NCBI GenBank assembly: GCA_025464025.1 | Contig: JAODBP010000174.1 | Span: 1 to 5,316, forward strand | Length of the DNA stretch: 5,316 nt | From: Actinomycetes bacterium | GTDB taxonomy: Bacteria > Actinomycetota > Acidimicrobiia > Acidimicrobiales > CADCSY01 | Direction: 5' to 3' | In this document: in pieces, positions 1 to 5,316 of the stretch | Layout of the letters: each line of letters starts with the position of its first letter | Position numbering within the stretch: the first letter of the stretch is position 1 | Notes under the pieces: generated by a model | The model's database searches: none | What the model was told of the DNA's origin: nothing | What the model saw: the letters and a program-made list of their open reading frames with translations, nothing else | Translations under genes and position numbers: made by a program

Positions 1-347
1 CGCTGGAGATCACGTCGGAGACGGTGAACAACCACGTGGTCTCGGTGGCGGTGAAGGACGTGCAGGAGGCGGTCAAGCGGGGCGAGACGATCCACCAGCC
101 GCTGTCGAAGCACGACGTGTTCCCGCCGATGGTCACCCAGATGCTCGCCGTGGGGGAGGAGACCGGCAACGTCGACGTGATGCTGGAGAAGGTCGCCGAC
201 TTCTACGACCAGGAGGTCGAGGCCACCGTCAACGCCCTCACCTCGCTGCTCGAGCCGCTGCTCATCGTCGTCCTCGGCGGCGCCGTCGGCGGGATGGTGA
301 TCTCGCTCTACCTGCCGATGTTCAAGATCATCGAGCTGGTCAAGTAG
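1..347 (+). CDS. Type II secretion/type IV pilus inner-membrane platform protein, PilC/GspF family (C-terminal part)
   Basis: This is the last 114 residues of a gene that begins left of the window; the reading frame is open from base 3 and ends at TAG 345-347. PilC/GspF proteins sit in the inner membrane and link the cytoplasmic assembly ATPase to the growing pilin or pseudopilin fibre. The visible part matches the end of the second GspF domain. A soluble helical stretch carries the conserved Gly-Glu-Glu-Thr-Gly signature (visible residues 51-55), followed by LEKVADFYDQEVE-type helices. A Leu-Glu-Pro motif opens the final membrane helix (about residues 84-106), and the short tail ends FKIIELVK, as is usual in the family. 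Nothing is truncated at the C-terminus. The rest of the pilus operon presumably lies to the left. No gene symbol is given because PilC and GspF homologues cannot be told apart from this fragment. Confidence 0.93.
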   Translation, partial: LEITSETVNNHVVSVAVKDVQEAVKRGETIHQPLSKHDVFPPMVTQMLAVGEETGNVDVMLEKVADFYDQEVEATVNALTSLLEPLLIVVLGGAVGGMVISLYLPMFKIIELVK

Positions 348-403: not shown

Positions 404-1138
404 GTGCTCGACGACCACTTCGCCGGTGAGGTCGCGGCCCGCTACGACGACAGGCTCGGCGCCGTGGGCTCGCGCGAGGTGCTCGGACCGACCGTTGACC
501 TCCTGGCCGGCCTTGTCGGCACCGGCGCCGCCCTCGAGATGGCGGTCGGCACCGGGCGGATCGCCCTGCCGCTCGCGGCCCGGGGCGTGCCGGTCTGTGG
601 CATCGAGCTGTCGCCCGACATGGTGGCCCAGCTCCGGGCCAAGCCGGGGGGCGACGCCATCCCCGTCACGATCGGCGACATGGCCACCGCGCGGGTCGAG
701 GGTGCCTTCCGGCTGGTCTACCTCCTCTACAACACGATCGGGAACGTCGAGACCCAGGACCGGCAGGTCGCGTGCTTCGCCAACGCCGCGGCCCACCTCG
801 AGCCTGGTGGATCCTTCGTCATCGAGGTCGGCGTGCCTGATCTGCGCCGCCTCGTCCCGGGCCAGGACTCGATCGTCTTCGCCCACGCGCCGGGCTACGT
901 CGGCTACGACCGCTACGACGACCTCGTCGCCCAGCACGCGGTCTCCCACCACTTCGTGGCCGAGGGCTCCGGTGCCCGCGAGGTTCGGACGCCGTACCGG
1001 TACGTGTGGCCCTCGGAGCTCGACCTGATGGCGAGGCTTGCCGGTCTCGAGCTGGGGGACAGGTGGGCCGACTGGAACCGGTCGCCGTTCACCGCCGACA
1101 GCCCGTCGCACGTGTCGGTGTGGCGCAAGCAGCCGTAG
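404..1138 (+). CDS. Class I SAM-dependent methyltransferase, 244 aa
   Basis: This is predicted to be a soluble methyltransferase with a Rossmann-like fold; the substrate is not identifiable. The SAM-binding motif I is a divergent ALEMAVGTGRIALPLA (residues 43-58, with E45, G49 and G51). An acidic strand end follows at IELSPDM (67-73), then the GDM motif with D92. After these come LVYLLYNTIGNV (104-115) and the post-motif strand LEPGGSFVIEVG (132-143). The C-terminal part (about 195-244, RYVWPSELDLMARLAGL then WNRSPFT and SHVSVW) looks like the tail of a methyltransferase group widespread in actinobacteria. The start is the GTG at 404: no other start codon lies upstream in frame before the pilC-like gene ends, and the protein is full length from here. 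No good Shine-Dalgarno sequence is visible. It lies 56 bases after the pilC-like stop with a hairpin between, so it is probably its own unit or a weak read-through member. Confidence 0.85.
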   Translation: MLDDHFAGEVAARYDDRLGAVGSREVLGPTVDLLAGLVGTGAALEMAVGTGRIALPLAARGVPVCGIELSPDMVAQLRAKPGGDAIPVTIGDMATARVEGAFRLVYLLYNTIGNVETQDRQVACFANAAAHLEPGGSFVIEVGVPDLRRLVPGQDSIVFAHAPGYVGYDRYDDLVAQHAVSHHFVAEGSGAREVRTPYRYVWPSELDLMARLAGLELGDRWADWNRSPFTADSPSHVSVWRKQP

Positions 1139-1177
1139 ACGCACGGCCGGCGGCAGTCGACCCGCGCTGCATGCCCG

Positions 1178-1286
1178 CGTGTCAGGCGAAATGGCGCGTC
1201 GCGATCACCAGGAATTCAGATCGCCGCGGCGATCCCGACACACGTTTGAAGGTGACTGGACCGAACGAGTCATTTCTCGTGTCAGG
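1178..1286 (+). repeat. Nine-base direct repeat CGTGTCAGG, two copies
   Basis: CGTGTCAGG occurs at 1178-1186 and again at 1278-1286, exactly 100 bases apart, and the two copies bracket most of the structured intergenic segment. The second copy supplies one arm (CGTGT) of the central stem of the larger hairpin. It could be a pair of regulator half-sites, a small duplication or chance. Nine bases in a 204-base region is only weak evidence. Confidence 0.3.
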
Positions 1287-1301
1287 GTTTCGGGATCAGC
1301 C
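1197..1301 (+). ncRNA. Candidate structured RNA or structured 5' leader upstream of the dCTP deaminase gene
   Basis: Two consecutive hairpins can be drawn. Hairpin A pairs GCGATC 1201-1206 with GATCGC 1219-1224 around a 12-base loop, with three weaker pairs below a C/C mismatch. Hairpin B is long. GGC 1228-1230 pairs with GCC 1299-1301, and GATCCCG 1231-1237 with CGGGATC 1291-1297, with bulged A1298 between the two. ACACG 1240-1244 then pairs with CGTGT 1278-1282, and 1250-1257 pairs with 1268-1275. Hairpin B has 23 pairs, two of them G-U wobbles (1251/1274 and 1252/1273) that work only in plus-strand RNA. The segment is about 57% G+C (52 A/T in 1201-1320), well below the neighbouring genes. 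In the AvcID anti-phage system, a small inhibitory RNA is encoded just 5' of the deaminase gene, which is the position seen here. Resemblance is by position and structure only; no sequence match to AvcI is claimed. It could instead be a riboswitch-like leader or a cluster of operator sites. Confidence 0.35.
1219..1234. repeat. Perfect 16-bp palindrome GATCGCCG/CGGCGATC
   Basis: The two eight-base halves (1219-1226 and 1227-1234) are exact reverse complements with no spacer. The site lies 109 bases upstream of the deaminase start codon. It may be a dimeric repressor operator. In RNA it could form a short stem that excludes both hairpin A (shares 1219-1228) and the base of hairpin B (shares 1228-1234), giving alternative folds. 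The symmetry is plainly visible; the role is not known. Confidence 0.45.
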
Positions 1302-1333
1302 CCGTTCATCTAGAAAGCGCCCTCTTCGATCGT

Positions 1334-1340
1334 GGGGGAA
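1334..1340 (+). promoter_or_regulatory. Shine-Dalgarno-like site for the deaminase gene, in a small hairpin
   Basis: GGGGGAA sits four bases after its G-run from the ATG at 1343 and supports that start over the in-frame ATG at 1394. ATCGT (1329-1333) and ACGAT (1340-1344) are exact reverse complements flanking the G-run, so the ribosome site would lie in the loop and the first two bases of the start codon in the stem. With only five pairs the hairpin may be coincidental. Confidence 0.45.
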
Positions 1341-1342
1341 CG

Positions 1343-3154
1343 ATGGACGAGCAACGGGCGCAACAACGCTTCTTCGAGGTGCTCCGGCCGGCCATGGAGG
1401 AGCCCGTCCCTGAGCTCTACTTCGCGACGGTCCGCGCCATGGGCACGCCGGTCGGCCGCATCCAGCGCGCGCTGGAGGATCGGCTCGCCGAGGGCCGCTA
1501 CGCGCTGCAGGAGGTCAAGCTCGCCGACGCCCTCGCCGCGTCACCCCACACGCCACGGGACCTGGCCGCGCTGCCGGCGTCCTCGAAGCGGTACCGCCGC
1601 CTGGCCGAGGCGGCGGTCAAGCTGCGCTTCACGTCGAAGAAGCGCGACGCCGTCGCCGTCACGGCCATCGCCGACCTGCATCGGCGGTTGCGATCGGAGG
1701 GCAAGGCCAAGGCGCGGGCCATGGGGGCGGTCGGCACCGCGTTCCTGTTCCGCAACCTCATGCACCACGACGAGGTCGGCCGGCTCCGGAAGGTGTACGA
1801 CCGGCAGTTCTTCCTCATCTCGATCTACGAGGAGCGCGTCGAGCGGATCGCCGAGCTGGCCGACCGACTGGCAGGCGGGCCGGGGATGGCCACGGACGAG
1901 ACCAAGAAGGAGGCCGAGGAGCTGGTCGAGCGGGAGGAGGAGTTCTTCCGTCGCAGCCAGCTCTACGACCCGGGGATCGCCGAGCGACGGAAGTTCGTCA
2001 CCAACATCCCCAAGGTCTTCCAGTACGGCGACCTCTTCCTGGATTCGAGCGACCCGAAGAACGGGGAGCACATCGACCGGTTCGTCGACGTGATCTTCGG
2101 CGAGCCGTTCATCACGCCGACCCGTGACGAGATCGGGATGGCTGACGCGTTCTCGGCGGCGCTCCAGTCGGGCAACCTGGCTCGCCAGGTCGGCGCGGCC
2201 ATCTGCACCGACGATGGCGACCTGATCGCCATGGGGACCAACGACGTCCCCAAGCCCGGTGGTGGCGTCTACCGGTACGACGACGAGCCCAACGACCACC
2301 GAGACCACCACCTGAGCCCGGCAAACCCGGACTTCGCCCGGGGTTGGGACGCGAGCGATCGCACGCGGCGCGAGATCTTCACCGACCTCGTGCACCGGAT
2401 GCTGGCCGATCCGAGGTGGCTGGCCCGGTTCGACGTGATGCGCGGTGGTGACGGCCACGGCGCCAAGCTCGCCGAGCAGCTGCAGGCGTCCCGGCGCCGC
2501 CTTCCGGCCGCGGTCGAAGGGCTCGTGGACGAGCTCATCAACGTCGAGCTGGTGTGGGGCGCCCAGCTGTTCGACGTCCTCGAGTACGGCCGCACGATGC
2601 ACGCCGAGATGGACGCCATCACCTCGGCGGCGCGCAAGGGCATCTCGACGCGGGGAGCCACGCTCTACTGCACGACCCTGCCGTGCCACGAGTGCGCCCG
2701 GCTCATCGTCGGCGCCGGCATCAAGCGCGTGATCTTCATCGAGCCGTACGAGAAGAGCCGGAGCGACCACCTCTACGCATCGGAGATCCGCTTCACGACC
2801 CTCGCCCACTCCCGCGAGGAGGAGCGGGTGCGTCGGACCGGGACGGCCAAGGAGGTGGCCAAGCTCGATCGCCACGAGCGGGTCGACTTCGTCCCCTACG
2901 TCGGCATCTCGCCGAGGCGGTTCGCCGAACTGTTCGCCAAGGGCGAGCGGAAGCTCGAGGACCAGAAGGACTACGACGGCGCCCGCACCCTCCAGGGGAA
3001 CCGGGCGAAGTGGTCCCGCGCCGACGGCAAGGTCAAGGAGACCATCATCTCGAAGAGCGCGCTCAAGTCGGTCCCGCGACTCGCCGACGTGCTCGACCAC
3101 GAGCGCTACCTCATCGAGGAGCTCGACGAGCTCATGGGCAAGCGGCATCCATGA
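1343..3154 (+). CDS. Anti-phage dCTP deaminase (AvcD/DCD type): P-loop-kinase-like domain plus deoxycytidylate deaminase domain, 603 aa
   Basis: Members of this family deaminate dCTP and/or dCMP during phage infection, depleting the cytidine deoxynucleotides needed for phage DNA synthesis. Residues about 24-165 look like the N-terminal kinase-like domain. Strand ELYFATV is followed by a loop MGTPVGRIQ (33-41), where a P-loop would lie but with no Gly-Lys-Ser/Thr, and later come LFRNLMHHDEV (135-145) and FFLISIY (156-162). A charged helix at about 185-205 leads to the family segment FGEPFITPTRDE (252-263). The deaminase domain follows, with RQVGAAI (281-287), PKPGGG (303-308) and the zinc site HAE (H420, catalytic E422) plus PCHEC (C448 and C451 as ligands). 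All catalytic residues are present. The C-terminus (about 470-603) contains FVPYVGISPRRF and a basic, helical tail. The ATG at 1343 has a G-rich ribosome site. The stop overlaps the next gene's ATG, so the two are probably cotranscribed and translationally coupled. The family assignment is strong; defence activity here is inferred. Confidence 0.92.
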   Translation: MDEQRAQQRFFEVLRPAMEEPVPELYFATVRAMGTPVGRIQRALEDRLAEGRYALQEVKLADALAASPHTPRDLAALPASSKRYRRLAEAAVKLRFTSKKRDAVAVTAIADLHRRLRSEGKAKARAMGAVGTAFLFRNLMHHDEVGRLRKVYDRQFFLISIYEERVERIAELADRLAGGPGMATDETKKEAEELVEREEEFFRRSQLYDPGIAERRKFVTNIPKVFQYGDLFLDSSDPKNGEHIDRFVDVIFGEPFITPTRDEIGMADAFSAALQSGNLARQVGAAICTDDGDLIAMGTNDVPKPGGGVYRYDDEPNDHRDHHLSPANPDFARGWDASDRTRREIFTDLVHRMLADPRWLARFDVMRGGDGHGAKLAEQLQASRRRLPAAVEGLVDELINVELVWGAQLFDVLEYGRTMHAEMDAITSAARKGISTRGATLYCTTLPCHECARLIVGAGIKRVIFIEPYEKSRSDHLYASEIRFTTLAHSREEERVRRTGTAKEVAKLDRHERVDFVPYVGISPRRFAELFAKGERKLEDQKDYDGARTLQGNRAKWSRADGKVKETIISKSALKSVPRLADVLDHERYLIEELDELMGKRHP

Positions 3155-3759
3155 GCGACGGGCTGTCGCTCGCCGGCGAGCTCGCGCACTACCGCGACCG
3201 GTGGCGGGCGACCGAGCGGATCGTCGACCAGCGGCTCACGATGCTGATCGCGGCGCTGGGCAGCGTCATGGCGGCCACGGTGGCCGTGCTGGCCCGGAAC
3301 GCCAAGGACACGCCGGTCGACATCGACCTCATCCTCGGCTCGGTGTGGCTTCTGCTCTCGTTCCTCGCCGAAGGGATCTTCTTCCGGCTGATCCGGGCCC
3401 GGAACACCATCCACCGGAACATCGCGGTCATCAACCACCTGCGCGCCGCGGCCTCTCTCCAGCTGCCGACGTGGGAGCAGCAGGTCCTCATGCCCGTGTA
3501 CGCCGCGGATTCCCGGTTGCCTCGTCCCTTCTACTTCTGGGGCTCGACGACGGCGAGCGCGCTCGTGCAGGGCGCTGGGCTGCACTTCTCGATCTGGTTC
3601 TTCGGTCCCGGGATCAGAGAACGGATGCCGCTCGGCGGTGTGATCGCGGGCCTGAGCGCCTTCGCGCTGAACATGGCCTACTACTGGGTGCGCTGTCGGG
3701 CGATCGACCTGGGGACAGTCGGGTCGCTTCCGCCCCAGCCGCCGGCGCCCGCCGCCTAG
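3151..3759 (+). CDS. Unrecognised four-helix integral membrane protein coupled to the dCTP deaminase, 202 aa
   Basis: I do not recognise this family. The start is the ATG at 3151, whose last two bases open the deaminase stop codon (ATGA overlap); this implies translational coupling and a shared function. The order is a charged amphipathic N-terminal helix (about 10-28, Arg/Glu-rich), TM1 (about 30-48), a short loop and TM2 (about 59-79). A 45-residue Arg-rich loop (about 80-126, RARNTIHRNIAVINHLR then LPTWEQQV) follows, then TM3 (about 127-151), a short loop and TM4 (about 161-180). The tail is Pro/Ala-rich and ends PPQPPAPAA. Charge distribution suggests both ends and the long loop are cytoplasmic. 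There is no signal peptide and no enzyme motif. Compact proteins with paired membrane helices and a cytoplasmic sensor part are common as putative pore-forming effectors in bacterial conflict systems (S-4TM and SLATT types). Membership in either is not shown. It could also be an anchor for the deaminase or an unrelated passenger. Confidence 0.85.
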   Translation: MSDGLSLAGELAHYRDRWRATERIVDQRLTMLIAALGSVMAATVAVLARNAKDTPVDIDLILGSVWLLLSFLAEGIFFRLIRARNTIHRNIAVINHLRAAASLQLPTWEQQVLMPVYAADSRLPRPFYFWGSTTASALVQGAGLHFSIWFFGPGIRERMPLGGVIAGLSAFALNMAYYWVRCRAIDLGTVGSLPPQPPAPAA

Positions 3760-4136
3760 TCGTCGAGCAACGTCCGCAGGCGGTTCGGGGCCAGGATGCG
3801 GTAGCTCTCGGTGACCAGCTCGGCGACCTCGGACCAGTCGGTCCGGTCGTCGAGGACGAGGCCGACGATGTCGGTGAACCACACTGGCTTGAAGAACGGC
3901 GGGCCGGCGTTGGCCAGGGCGTCGAGCTCGCTCGGTGACGAGCGGAAGGTGAGCACGGTGGCGTCGGTGGCGCTCGCCGCTTCGGCGTAGGCCGGTGGGT
4001 GTCCGTCGACGATGTCGACCACGTGGGCGAAGTTCTTCTTCCGGATCGTCCACCGGGTGCCGACCCAGGCCTGCTCCTCGACCACCTCGGGCAGGGCCAT
4101 GCACAGCACGCGCACCCGCTCGAGCGCGGCGCTCAT
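3756..4136 (-). CDS. MmcQ/YjbR (DUF419) family protein, 126 aa
   Basis: This is a small soluble protein of the MmcQ/YjbR family, which has a CyaY-like fold and is often annotated as DNA-binding, though its biochemical role is poorly defined. The family pattern is clear. The N-terminal helix leads to ALPEVVEEQAWVGTRWTIRKKNFAHV (residues 14-39), the equivalent of the usual LPG-x-x-E-x-x-W-G block followed by a strand with Lys-Asn-Phe. Then come a variable strand, PPFFKPVWF (79-87) and the terminal helix with DWSEVAELVTESYRILAPNRL (100-120). Length is normal. The ATG (4134-4136) overlaps the upstream methyltransferase stop as ATGA, and a GGTGAG a few bases earlier may serve as ribosome site, so the two form an operon. 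Its stop codon overlaps the stop of the convergent membrane-protein gene by four bases (CTAG). Confidence 0.88.
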   Translation of the reverse strand: MSAALERVRVLCMALPEVVEEQAWVGTRWTIRKKNFAHVVDIVDGHPPAYAEAASATDATVLTFRSSPSELDALANAGPPFFKPVWFTDIVGLVLDDRTDWSEVAELVTESYRILAPNRLRTLLDD

Positions 4137-4774
4137 CGCTCACCGACGAGGAGGGCGAAGCCGCGCCAGCGCCAGAGGCAGTCGACGTTGGTGAGGCCGG
4201 CGTCGCGCATCCAGACCAGCTGGTCGTCGACGGGGGCCAGCCGGTCCTCGGGGTCGTCGGCGTCGCGGCCGATGGCGACGAGGAACTCGGCGTGGCGCTC
4301 GGGGGTGGCCGAGGCCACGACCTCGAGGTTGGCGAACGTGCCGCCAGGGGCCAGCAGTCCGGCGACCTCGCCGAACAGCGCCCGCTTGCGCTCGTGCTCG
4401 AGGTGGTGGATGGCGAAGCCGGACACGACCACGTCGAACGGGCCGGTCGCGGTGATGGGCTGCTCGAGGTCGCCCACGACCACCTCGACCCGGGGGTCGT
4501 CGGCGAAGTTGGCTCGGGCCCGCTCGAGCATGGCCGGCGACCGGTCGACGCAGACCGCCTCCTCGACCGTCGCCCGGTTGGTCAGCACCAGGGCGGCCAG
4601 GCGGCCGTCACCGCAGCCGAGGTCGAGGACGCGTCGGGGTGCCTCGGGCAGCACATCGGCGAGCACGCGCTCGCCGGCCTGCCTCGCTTCGAGCTTGCCG
4701 ATGCGGCCGAGGTACCACGCGACCTGCTCCTCGTCGGCCCATCCACCGACCGGTGTCGTGCTCACGTTCGTCAT
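4133..4774 (-). CDS. Class I SAM-dependent methyltransferase (methyltransferase domain 25/11 type), 213 aa
   Basis: This is a soluble SAM-dependent methyltransferase of unknown substrate. Motif I is canonical, VLDLGCGDG (residues 49-57). The acidic residue closing strand 2 is D77 in CVDRSPAMLERA, motif III is GDL (101-103), motif IV is FDVVVSGFAIHHL (113-125), and the post-motif is LLAPGGTF (140-147). An N-terminal helical cap (VAWYLGRIGKLEARQAGE) and a C-terminal substrate-side segment (LVWMRDAGLTNVDCLWRWRGFALLVG) complete a normal-length protein. The start is uncertain. The ATG at 4774 has GGGAAG directly against it, too close for normal initiation, whereas an in-frame GTG three codons later would put the same motif nine bases upstream. 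It is the first gene of a two-gene unit with the MmcQ/YjbR protein (ATGA overlap). A strong hairpin lies between it and the HNH gene. Confidence 0.9.
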   Translation of the reverse strand: MTNVSTTPVGGWADEEQVAWYLGRIGKLEARQAGERVLADVLPEAPRRVLDLGCGDGRLAALVLTNRATVEEAVCVDRSPAMLERARANFADDPRVEVVVGDLEQPITATGPFDVVVSGFAIHHLEHERKRALFGEVAGLLAPGGTFANLEVVASATPERHAEFLVAIGRDADDPEDRLAPVDDQLVWMRDAGLTNVDCLWRWRGFALLVGER

Positions 4775-4804: not shown

Positions 4805-5316
4805 TCAGGGGCCGCGGTTGCGGGCTCGGTTGTGGAAGCCGCAGGCGGGTCGGCCGTTCCAGGTCCGGGTGGGGCCGCCTTTGGCAACTTCGATGATGTG
4901 GTCGATCTGGGCGTCTTCGGACGGGACTTCGCAGGTGTCTTCGAAGCATTCCTCGCCGAGGACTTCGACGGCTCGTCGGGTGGCGCCGGTGAAGCAGCGG
5001 GCTTCGCCGACGTCGAGGGCTCGGCCCTTGCCGTCGGCGACGATGCGCTCGATCAGCGAGTCGGTCAGGTACGGGATCAGCGAGCCGGGGGTGACGACGG
5101 TGCGGTTGGCCAGCTCGCAGACCTGCTTGAACTTGTCGTAGCCCATCACCACGGTGAAGAGCGGCTCAGGCCGCCGAGCATCGTTCGGGACGGATCGGGC
5201 GCGGACAGCCATCTCCACGAACGCGTCGGCTCGCCGTTGCTTGGCGGTGCGGCGCAGCTCGGTGACGAGCGGGTCGCGTCCGAGGCGTTCCTTGGCTTCG
5301 GCCCAGTCGGCCTTGA
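4805..5316 (-). CDS. DUF222/13E12-type HNH endonuclease-domain protein (C-terminal part, cut by the window edge)
   Basis: This is the last 169 residues of a longer protein; the frame stays open to the right edge, so the GTG at 5218 is internal and not a start. The visible part resembles actinobacterial DUF222-HNH proteins (REP13E12-like). A helix with RRTAKQRRADAFVEMAVRA is followed by PEPLFTVVMGY, CELANRTVVTPGSLIPYL, and GEARCFTGATRRAVEV. The HNH nuclease core then has a Cys pair in ECFEDTC, DHI (codons for Asp and His at 4898-4903), the central Asn in WNGRPAC (4856-4858) and the closing CGFHNRARNR with His at 4832-4834. All HNH positions are filled, so a metal-dependent nuclease fold is likely. 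The biological role of this multicopy family is not settled, and it is not thought to be tied to the neighbours here. The C-terminus is normal for the family. Confidence 0.92.
   Translation of the reverse strand, partial: KADWAEAKERLGRDPLVTELRRTAKQRRADAFVEMAVRARSVPNDARRPEPLFTVVMGYDKFKQVCELANRTVVTPGSLIPYLTDSLIERIVADGKGRALDVGEARCFTGATRRAVEVLGEECFEDTCEVPSEDAQIDHIIEVAKGGPTRTWNGRPACGFHNRARNRGP

Follow-up and report, generated by a model that had tools for sequence, protein, structure and literature searches.

Does an anti-phage deaminase act together with the small membrane protein encoded directly behind it, or do the two only happen to be neighbours? The question is raised by contig JAODBP010000174.1 of an Actinomycetes bacterium (complete at 5,316 bases and analysed over its whole length, hereafter the window), in which the gene for an AvcD-like deaminase is overlapped at its stop codon by the gene for a membrane protein outside known families. 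We read the pair as a two-gene variant of dCTP-deaminase phage defence that is rare and confined to one clade, with the membrane protein holding, positioning or restraining the enzyme, and would give this reading a probability of roughly 0.45. That the two proteins work together in defence in some way is rather probable, any particular mechanism having a lower chance than the joint role as such.

Two overlapping genes

The elements needed for the argument are the following.

1139..1342, plus strand: 204-nt leader 5' of the deaminase gene, assessed by fold z-score and Rfam
1343-3154, plus strand: AvcD/dCTPase-like deaminase, 603 amino acids (PADLOC, NCBIfam and Pfam matches; AlphaFold2 (AF2) model with a predicted local distance difference test (pLDDT) score of 85.6)
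1415..2098, plus strand: N-terminal adenylate-kinase-like domain with a degenerate P-loop, residues 25-252
2114..2956, plus strand: cytidine-type deaminase domain, residues 258-538
2600..2608, plus strand: H420-A421-E422, zinc ligand and catalytic glutamate, invariant across 42 aligned sequences
2681..2695, plus strand: P447-C-H-E-C451 with the zinc cysteines C448 and C451, from the alignment
3151-3154, plus strand: ATGA overlap of the deaminase TGA with the membrane-protein ATG, read in the sequence
3151-3759, plus strand: four-pass membrane protein, 202 amino acids, outside known families (six relatives; AF2 pLDDT 75.7)

The first-pass annotation, made from the sequence alone, had described a deaminase of AvcD architecture with an intact zinc site, its stop codon overlapping the ATG of an unrecognised membrane protein, and all three statements are borne out: a kinase-like N-terminal fold is followed by HAE...PCHEC, the two genes share the four bases ATGA, and the membrane protein reaches the cut-off of no Pfam, PADLOC or NCBIfam family and has no structural match of significance. 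The deaminase is AvcD-like and of the PADLOC dCTPase type, the PADLOC model matching residues 19-595 with E 2.2e-119; Pfam matches are to PF00383 and PF14437, and the N-terminal P-loop kinase-like domain that marks anti-phage dCTP deaminases is present. The score against NCBIfam NF041025 is 333.8 bits, under the curated cut-off of 400, and this model is matched at E <= 1e-10 by all 30 aligned subfamily members. HAE..PCxxC is intact in 120 of 120 listed deaminases, the window's protein among them (the best 120 of 651, 117 of these with a stated contig size). Such an enzyme would be expected to deaminate dCTP/dCMP and to protect against phages. Family members (E <= 1e-20) were found in 2/296 and 5/399 sampled genomes, one genome per sample (G008, G007) having been a known carrier beforehand.

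A subfamily of deaminases comprising P0005-P0036, 40-61% identical to the window protein, mostly has an A-I/M/L/V-GTP loop. Its sources are mostly metagenomes (P0022 and P0029 are additionally tagged ncbi), and it is absent from the deaminase scan of the genome_contigs collection, in which 12 loci reach at most 34% identity.

The membrane protein is real, as supported by its six relatives: three were obtained at 51-56% identity by sequence search and three at 33-41% by a profile search that scored just the 7,997 candidates with the most shared words. These relatives likewise match no family above cut-off in the three libraries, and no library searched names or models the family. No PHROGs family was found for the window protein, a sequence search turned up no solved relative, the best of its four rows having E 0.72, and a structure search with its model gave no match at E <= 0.001 in PDB or BFVD, the structural rows in VIA being chiefly 14-3-3 proteins and other helical bundles. 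The AF2 model, built from seven sequences, has a long TM1 helix (TM, transmembrane), a long helix opening with TM2 and a TM3-TM4 hairpin:

3178..3246, plus strand: helix entering TM1, residues 10-32, best conserved, predicted cytoplasmic
3235..3291, plus strand: TM1, residues 29-47, hydropathy 2.24, within AF2 helix 3-53
3328..3384, plus strand: TM2, residues 60-78, hydropathy 2.07, within AF2 helix 58-104
3385..3444, plus strand: arginine-rich helix after TM2, residues 79-98, predicted cytoplasmic, in a conserved stretch
3544..3603, plus strand: TM3, residues 132-151, an AF2 helix, with a hydropathy signal in P0002-P0004 and not in the window protein
3631..3693, plus strand: TM4, residues 161-181, an AF2 helix, with hydropathy 1.34 at residues 159-177

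Across the seven sequences 27 columns are invariant, 12 of them in residues 1-28 (M1 included) and 9 in residues 79-128. These two stretches are predicted to be cytoplasmic and together hold 21 of the 27, TM3 and TM4 holding one; the counts are lowered in the middle of the protein because P0127 looks frameshifted there. The distribution of charge, with seven K/R against two D/E in residues 79-128 and a balance of five and five in residues 1-28, suggests that the N-terminus and the stretch from TM2 to TM3 face the cytoplasm.

A search for the membrane protein in 13 deaminase-bearing genomes or records gave rows in four of them (E 0.018-0.59), none credible, and IMG/VR and plasmids gave none; for the genome_contigs collection the deaminase was the sole query. 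The pair is rare within the data searched. One candidate remote relative, P0128, aligned over 149 columns in a pairwise hhalign comparison (E 7.7e-5) and was rejected, this alignment being no evidence because the protein had been recruited as a chance-level row (E 4.9) among 5.8 billion proteins. P0128 has no Pfam family, weak rows in 2/198 genomes and one relative, in a Nonomuraea record that has no annotation at that place.

An assignment to S_4TM or SLATT, the families put forward at the outset for comparison, is not supported. Among the seven members, S_4TM (PF18159) gave no Pfam row at E <= 5 and SLATT no Pfam row, and the best NCBIfam score for SLATT is 14.2 bits against a cut-off of 41. 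It comes from SLATT_1, which two of the seven match weakly, their alignments sharing a register (E 0.033 at 14.2 bits, E 1.7 at 8.6 bits). Comparison by hhalign with single SLATT and DUF4231 proteins gave probabilities of at most 1%, and profile-profile comparison with a 28-sequence SLATT_1 profile (from 28 of 30 loci) gave 2.2% at a score of 20.0, narrowly above the eight reversed or shuffled controls, which reached up to 16.1. The positive controls relied on for this comparison were L051 (93.6%) and L049 (92.6%); a SLATT_3 control aligned over only 16 columns, probably because its fragment extended into the SLATT_1 domain. The search for S_4TM found it in 0/119 genomes and also in 0/14 controls, and hence provided no comparison sequences. 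With SLATT proteins the window protein shares the order helix, TM1, TM2, helix, and it differs from them in two additional TM helices and in scores far under the cut-off; it is SLATT-like in layout over its first half, the relation being unproven.

Possible pairing in relatives and competing explanations

Outside the window, the pairing is hinted at in two close relatives. Membrane relative P0002 and deaminase P0008 (58% identical to the window's) are each on a contig of 5428 bases, and membrane relative P0003 and deaminase P0006 (60%) are each on a contig of 14434 bases, P0002 and P0003 being 54-56% identical to the window membrane protein. Each couple is taken to share a contig because the sizes are equal (the size given being that of the longest contig per protein only) and because no same-size coincidence occurs between deaminase contigs in 6,786 pairs (117 listed deaminases, the window's left out). 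Codon compatibility was also tried as a sign of gene overlap in P0002 and P0003, and was set aside as non-discriminating, almost any pair fitting short overlaps.

When 43 of the 120 listed deaminases are placed on a tree, the window protein and its five closest relatives form a clade of six (P0005-P0010) with support 100/100. Within it the window protein groups with P0009 and P0010 (89/94) and P0006 with P0008 (89/87), both under the 95/80 bar. Paired members therefore likely stand on both sides of the clade, and this suggests that the pair arose before the clade split, a suggestion that falls short of proof because of the sub-branch support.

Several observations weigh against a functional pair. 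The pairing in relatives was deduced from equal contig sizes, with adjacency, order and overlap seen in the window alone, and the tree shows no clustering of paired members beyond chance against P0007, P0009 and P0010, 288 of 500 shuffles being as low. For these three deaminases no membrane relative of matching contig size was found, which is indecisive because their contigs are short (2,837, 3,741 and 3,510 bases); a membrane partner cut to fewer than about 111 amino acids would escape the search. Among the six relatives of the membrane protein, two share a size with a deaminase contig, two are on contigs too short for a verdict (1052 and 1538 bases), and the two most divergent, P0126 (3,587 bases) and P0127 (7,992), match 0 of the 117 listed deaminases, in a comparison that would miss broken or truncated deaminases and those beyond the best 120 of 651. 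The window itself has no further recognised defence gene (by Pfam scan, with PADLOC on the deaminase and membrane genes only). A point in favour of the pair, on the other hand, is that its leader gives no sign of a structured RNA like the AvcI of AvcID (fold z-score +0.71, with 156 of 200 shuffles folding equally well or better) and no Rfam match at E <= 1, in a weak test made on a single sequence without covariation; an RNA may still be encoded in the leader.

Among distant deaminases (29-33% identity), the membrane gene is found at 0/17 evaluable loci. Nineteen loci were considered (L001-L009, L011-L013, L028, L032 and L043-L047, with L010 omitted as a near-copy of L009), and an open reading frame (ORF) of at least 60 amino acids was sought that starts between 60 bases before and 150 bases after the deaminase stop; L047 repeats L007, which leaves 18, and L008 stops at the gene (26.5% identity), which leaves 17. 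The sole ORF with a hydrophobic stretch, in L045, begins like a ParA ATPase. Since none of the 17 has the membrane gene, the enzyme family is taken to work elsewhere without it, and anti-phage dCTP deaminases in general do not have the membrane protein as a partner, which is at most tied to one small clade. The dedicated partner proposed in the first-pass annotation survives in that two relatives share contig sizes with two of the closest deaminases, and fails as a general rule; of what had been named beforehand as arguing against a pair, deaminases lacking the neighbour are the finding across the family at large (17/17), whereas the near clade may go either way, and membrane homologues away from deaminases give a mixed picture, with two of six relatives matched.

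These counts bear on the explanation that the membrane gene is a chance neighbour or operon hitch-hiker, its overlap coming from a compact operon and the role of its protein being unrelated to the deaminase. ATGA overlaps are common in operons, and the unmatched P0126 and P0127, the 17 distant loci and the three of six clade members likewise without a match are all in its favour; against it, two size matches at 54-56% identity occur among six relatives and both lead into the six-member clade, and the membrane gene is present in 0/399, 0/121 and 0/24 sampled genomes, a weak result in the absence of a positive genome, from samples that may overlap. We regard this explanation as doubtful. A pair serving nucleotide metabolism or transport, with a housekeeping dCMP/dCTP deaminase in the six-member clade, would agree with the NF041025 score under the cut-off and with the lack of a further recognised defence gene, but the strong PADLOC dCTPase match, the scarcity of the family in the sampled genomes and the large N-terminal kinase-like domain, which cannot fit the matched dCMP deaminases of 138-193 amino acids, make it quite improbable.

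If the two proteins do act together in defence, membrane disruption or tethering, as originally proposed, might be the joint function. Membrane damage by a second effector would back up nucleotide depletion once the deaminase pathway is triggered, like the small multi-pass effectors of other abortive systems; TM3 and TM4 are, however, the least conserved helices, conservation being concentrated in the predicted cytoplasmic ones, and nothing is above cut-off in PADLOC, Pfam or NCBIfam, so that such a role appears unlikely. The membrane protein probably serves as an accessory by which the deaminase is positioned or restrained. In the two-gene variant that we favour, the AvcD-like enzyme would deaminate dCTP/dCMP upon infection and starve phage replication, and the membrane gene would be translated through coupling at the ATGA overlap. 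The conserved face formed by the helix into TM1 and the arginine-rich helix out of TM2, predicted to be cytoplasmic, would contact the deaminase and hold, position or restrain it at the membrane; control would run from membrane to enzyme, an infection event at the membrane setting deaminase output, and the membrane protein would thus act where AvcID has the AvcI RNA. A more specific version, in which a dedicated four-pass protein of a new family replaces the RNA antitoxin, gates the deaminase and senses phage entry or membrane disturbance directly, is in our opinion somewhat unlikely.

Surroundings of the deaminase genes

The other features of the window are as follows.

24-347, plus strand: type II secretion F protein, 3' end only
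404-1138, plus strand: methyltransferase
3756-4136, minus strand: YjbR protein
4133-4774, minus strand: second methyltransferase
4805-5314, minus strand: partial ORF at the contig end, with an HNH match (E 0.0015) below cut-off

Good matches to the second methyltransferase, at 45-51% identity, occur in 4/149 genomes of one actinobacterial phylum sample, the sole phylum searched, and lean no more than slightly towards an actinobacterial source. No tRNA was found in the window, and a scan of all of it against Rfam gave one row, well under the gathering score and on the minus strand within the deaminase gene.

At some distant loci the deaminase has other neighbours. In three from Actinomycetota (L003 2472-3730, plus strand; L005 5093-6480, plus strand; L006 7517-8754, minus strand) it adjoins a gene pair, the second gene of which gives matches to PF00227, the family of proteasome subunits (E 4.6e-6, 0.033, which is below cut-off, and 1.9e-5), the first matching no family above cut-off; an ORF in L007 that starts 129 bases past the deaminase stop is similar to the L005 ORF. 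Such a gene pair may recur next to dCTP deaminases. Two Antrihabitans genomes (L001 7923-9619 and L002 6022-7197, both minus strand) have a ThiF/DUF6791 protein near the deaminase (Pfam-tested in L002 only), L001 having a DUF6527 protein there as well, a neighbourhood reminiscent of ubiquitin-like conjugation defence loci. In L032 (G049), a minus-strand deaminase at about 6000-7900 is flanked by type I restriction-like and integrase-like genes, as judged by eye from translations.

Comparison with AvcID and RADAR

The window deaminase resembles AvcID, NF041025 and the PADLOC dCTPase in joining a kinase-like N-terminal domain to a zinc deaminase with HAE and PCxxC. It differs from AvcID and the plasmid dCTPases in sequence, being 27-33% identical to the 20 listed of the 64 plasmid records with a deaminase match and below the NCBIfam cut-off; from AvcID in a leader without sign of an RNA antitoxin (one sequence); and from the plasmid dCTPases in its overlapping membrane gene, absent in three annotated plasmid loci, for which the PLSDB gene tables are incomplete. 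Among the open-access full-text literature matches listed, none describes a membrane partner dedicated to a dCTP deaminase, the first descriptions of 2022 in Nature Microbiology lying outside this scope.

A deaminase together with a small membrane protein is nevertheless already precedented, going by passages on RADAR, variants of which encode SLATT or Csx27 as such a protein (PMC11676413, PMC7699616); the first-pass annotation makes no mention of RADAR. The rdrABC (Csx27) and rdrABCD (SLATT) forms are like the window in that one locus encodes both a nucleotide deaminase and a small membrane protein. They are unlike it in that RADAR has an ATPase and an adenosine deaminase, whereas the window deaminase is of the cytidine type (PF00383); no RdrA-type ATPase is present among the seven proteins scanned in the window, and no PADLOC model matches the membrane protein.

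The activation described for AvcID, in passages of PMC10511110 and PMC12409362, is the loss of a labile RNA: AvcI RNA holds AvcD, which is released once the phage halts host transcription. A membrane protein that is coupled to the deaminase and has a conserved face, predicted to be cytoplasmic, is plausible as an alternative controller, and if this is true, the membrane partner would represent a second route of control in dCTP-deaminase defence, parallel to the SLATT and Csx27 accessories of RADAR.
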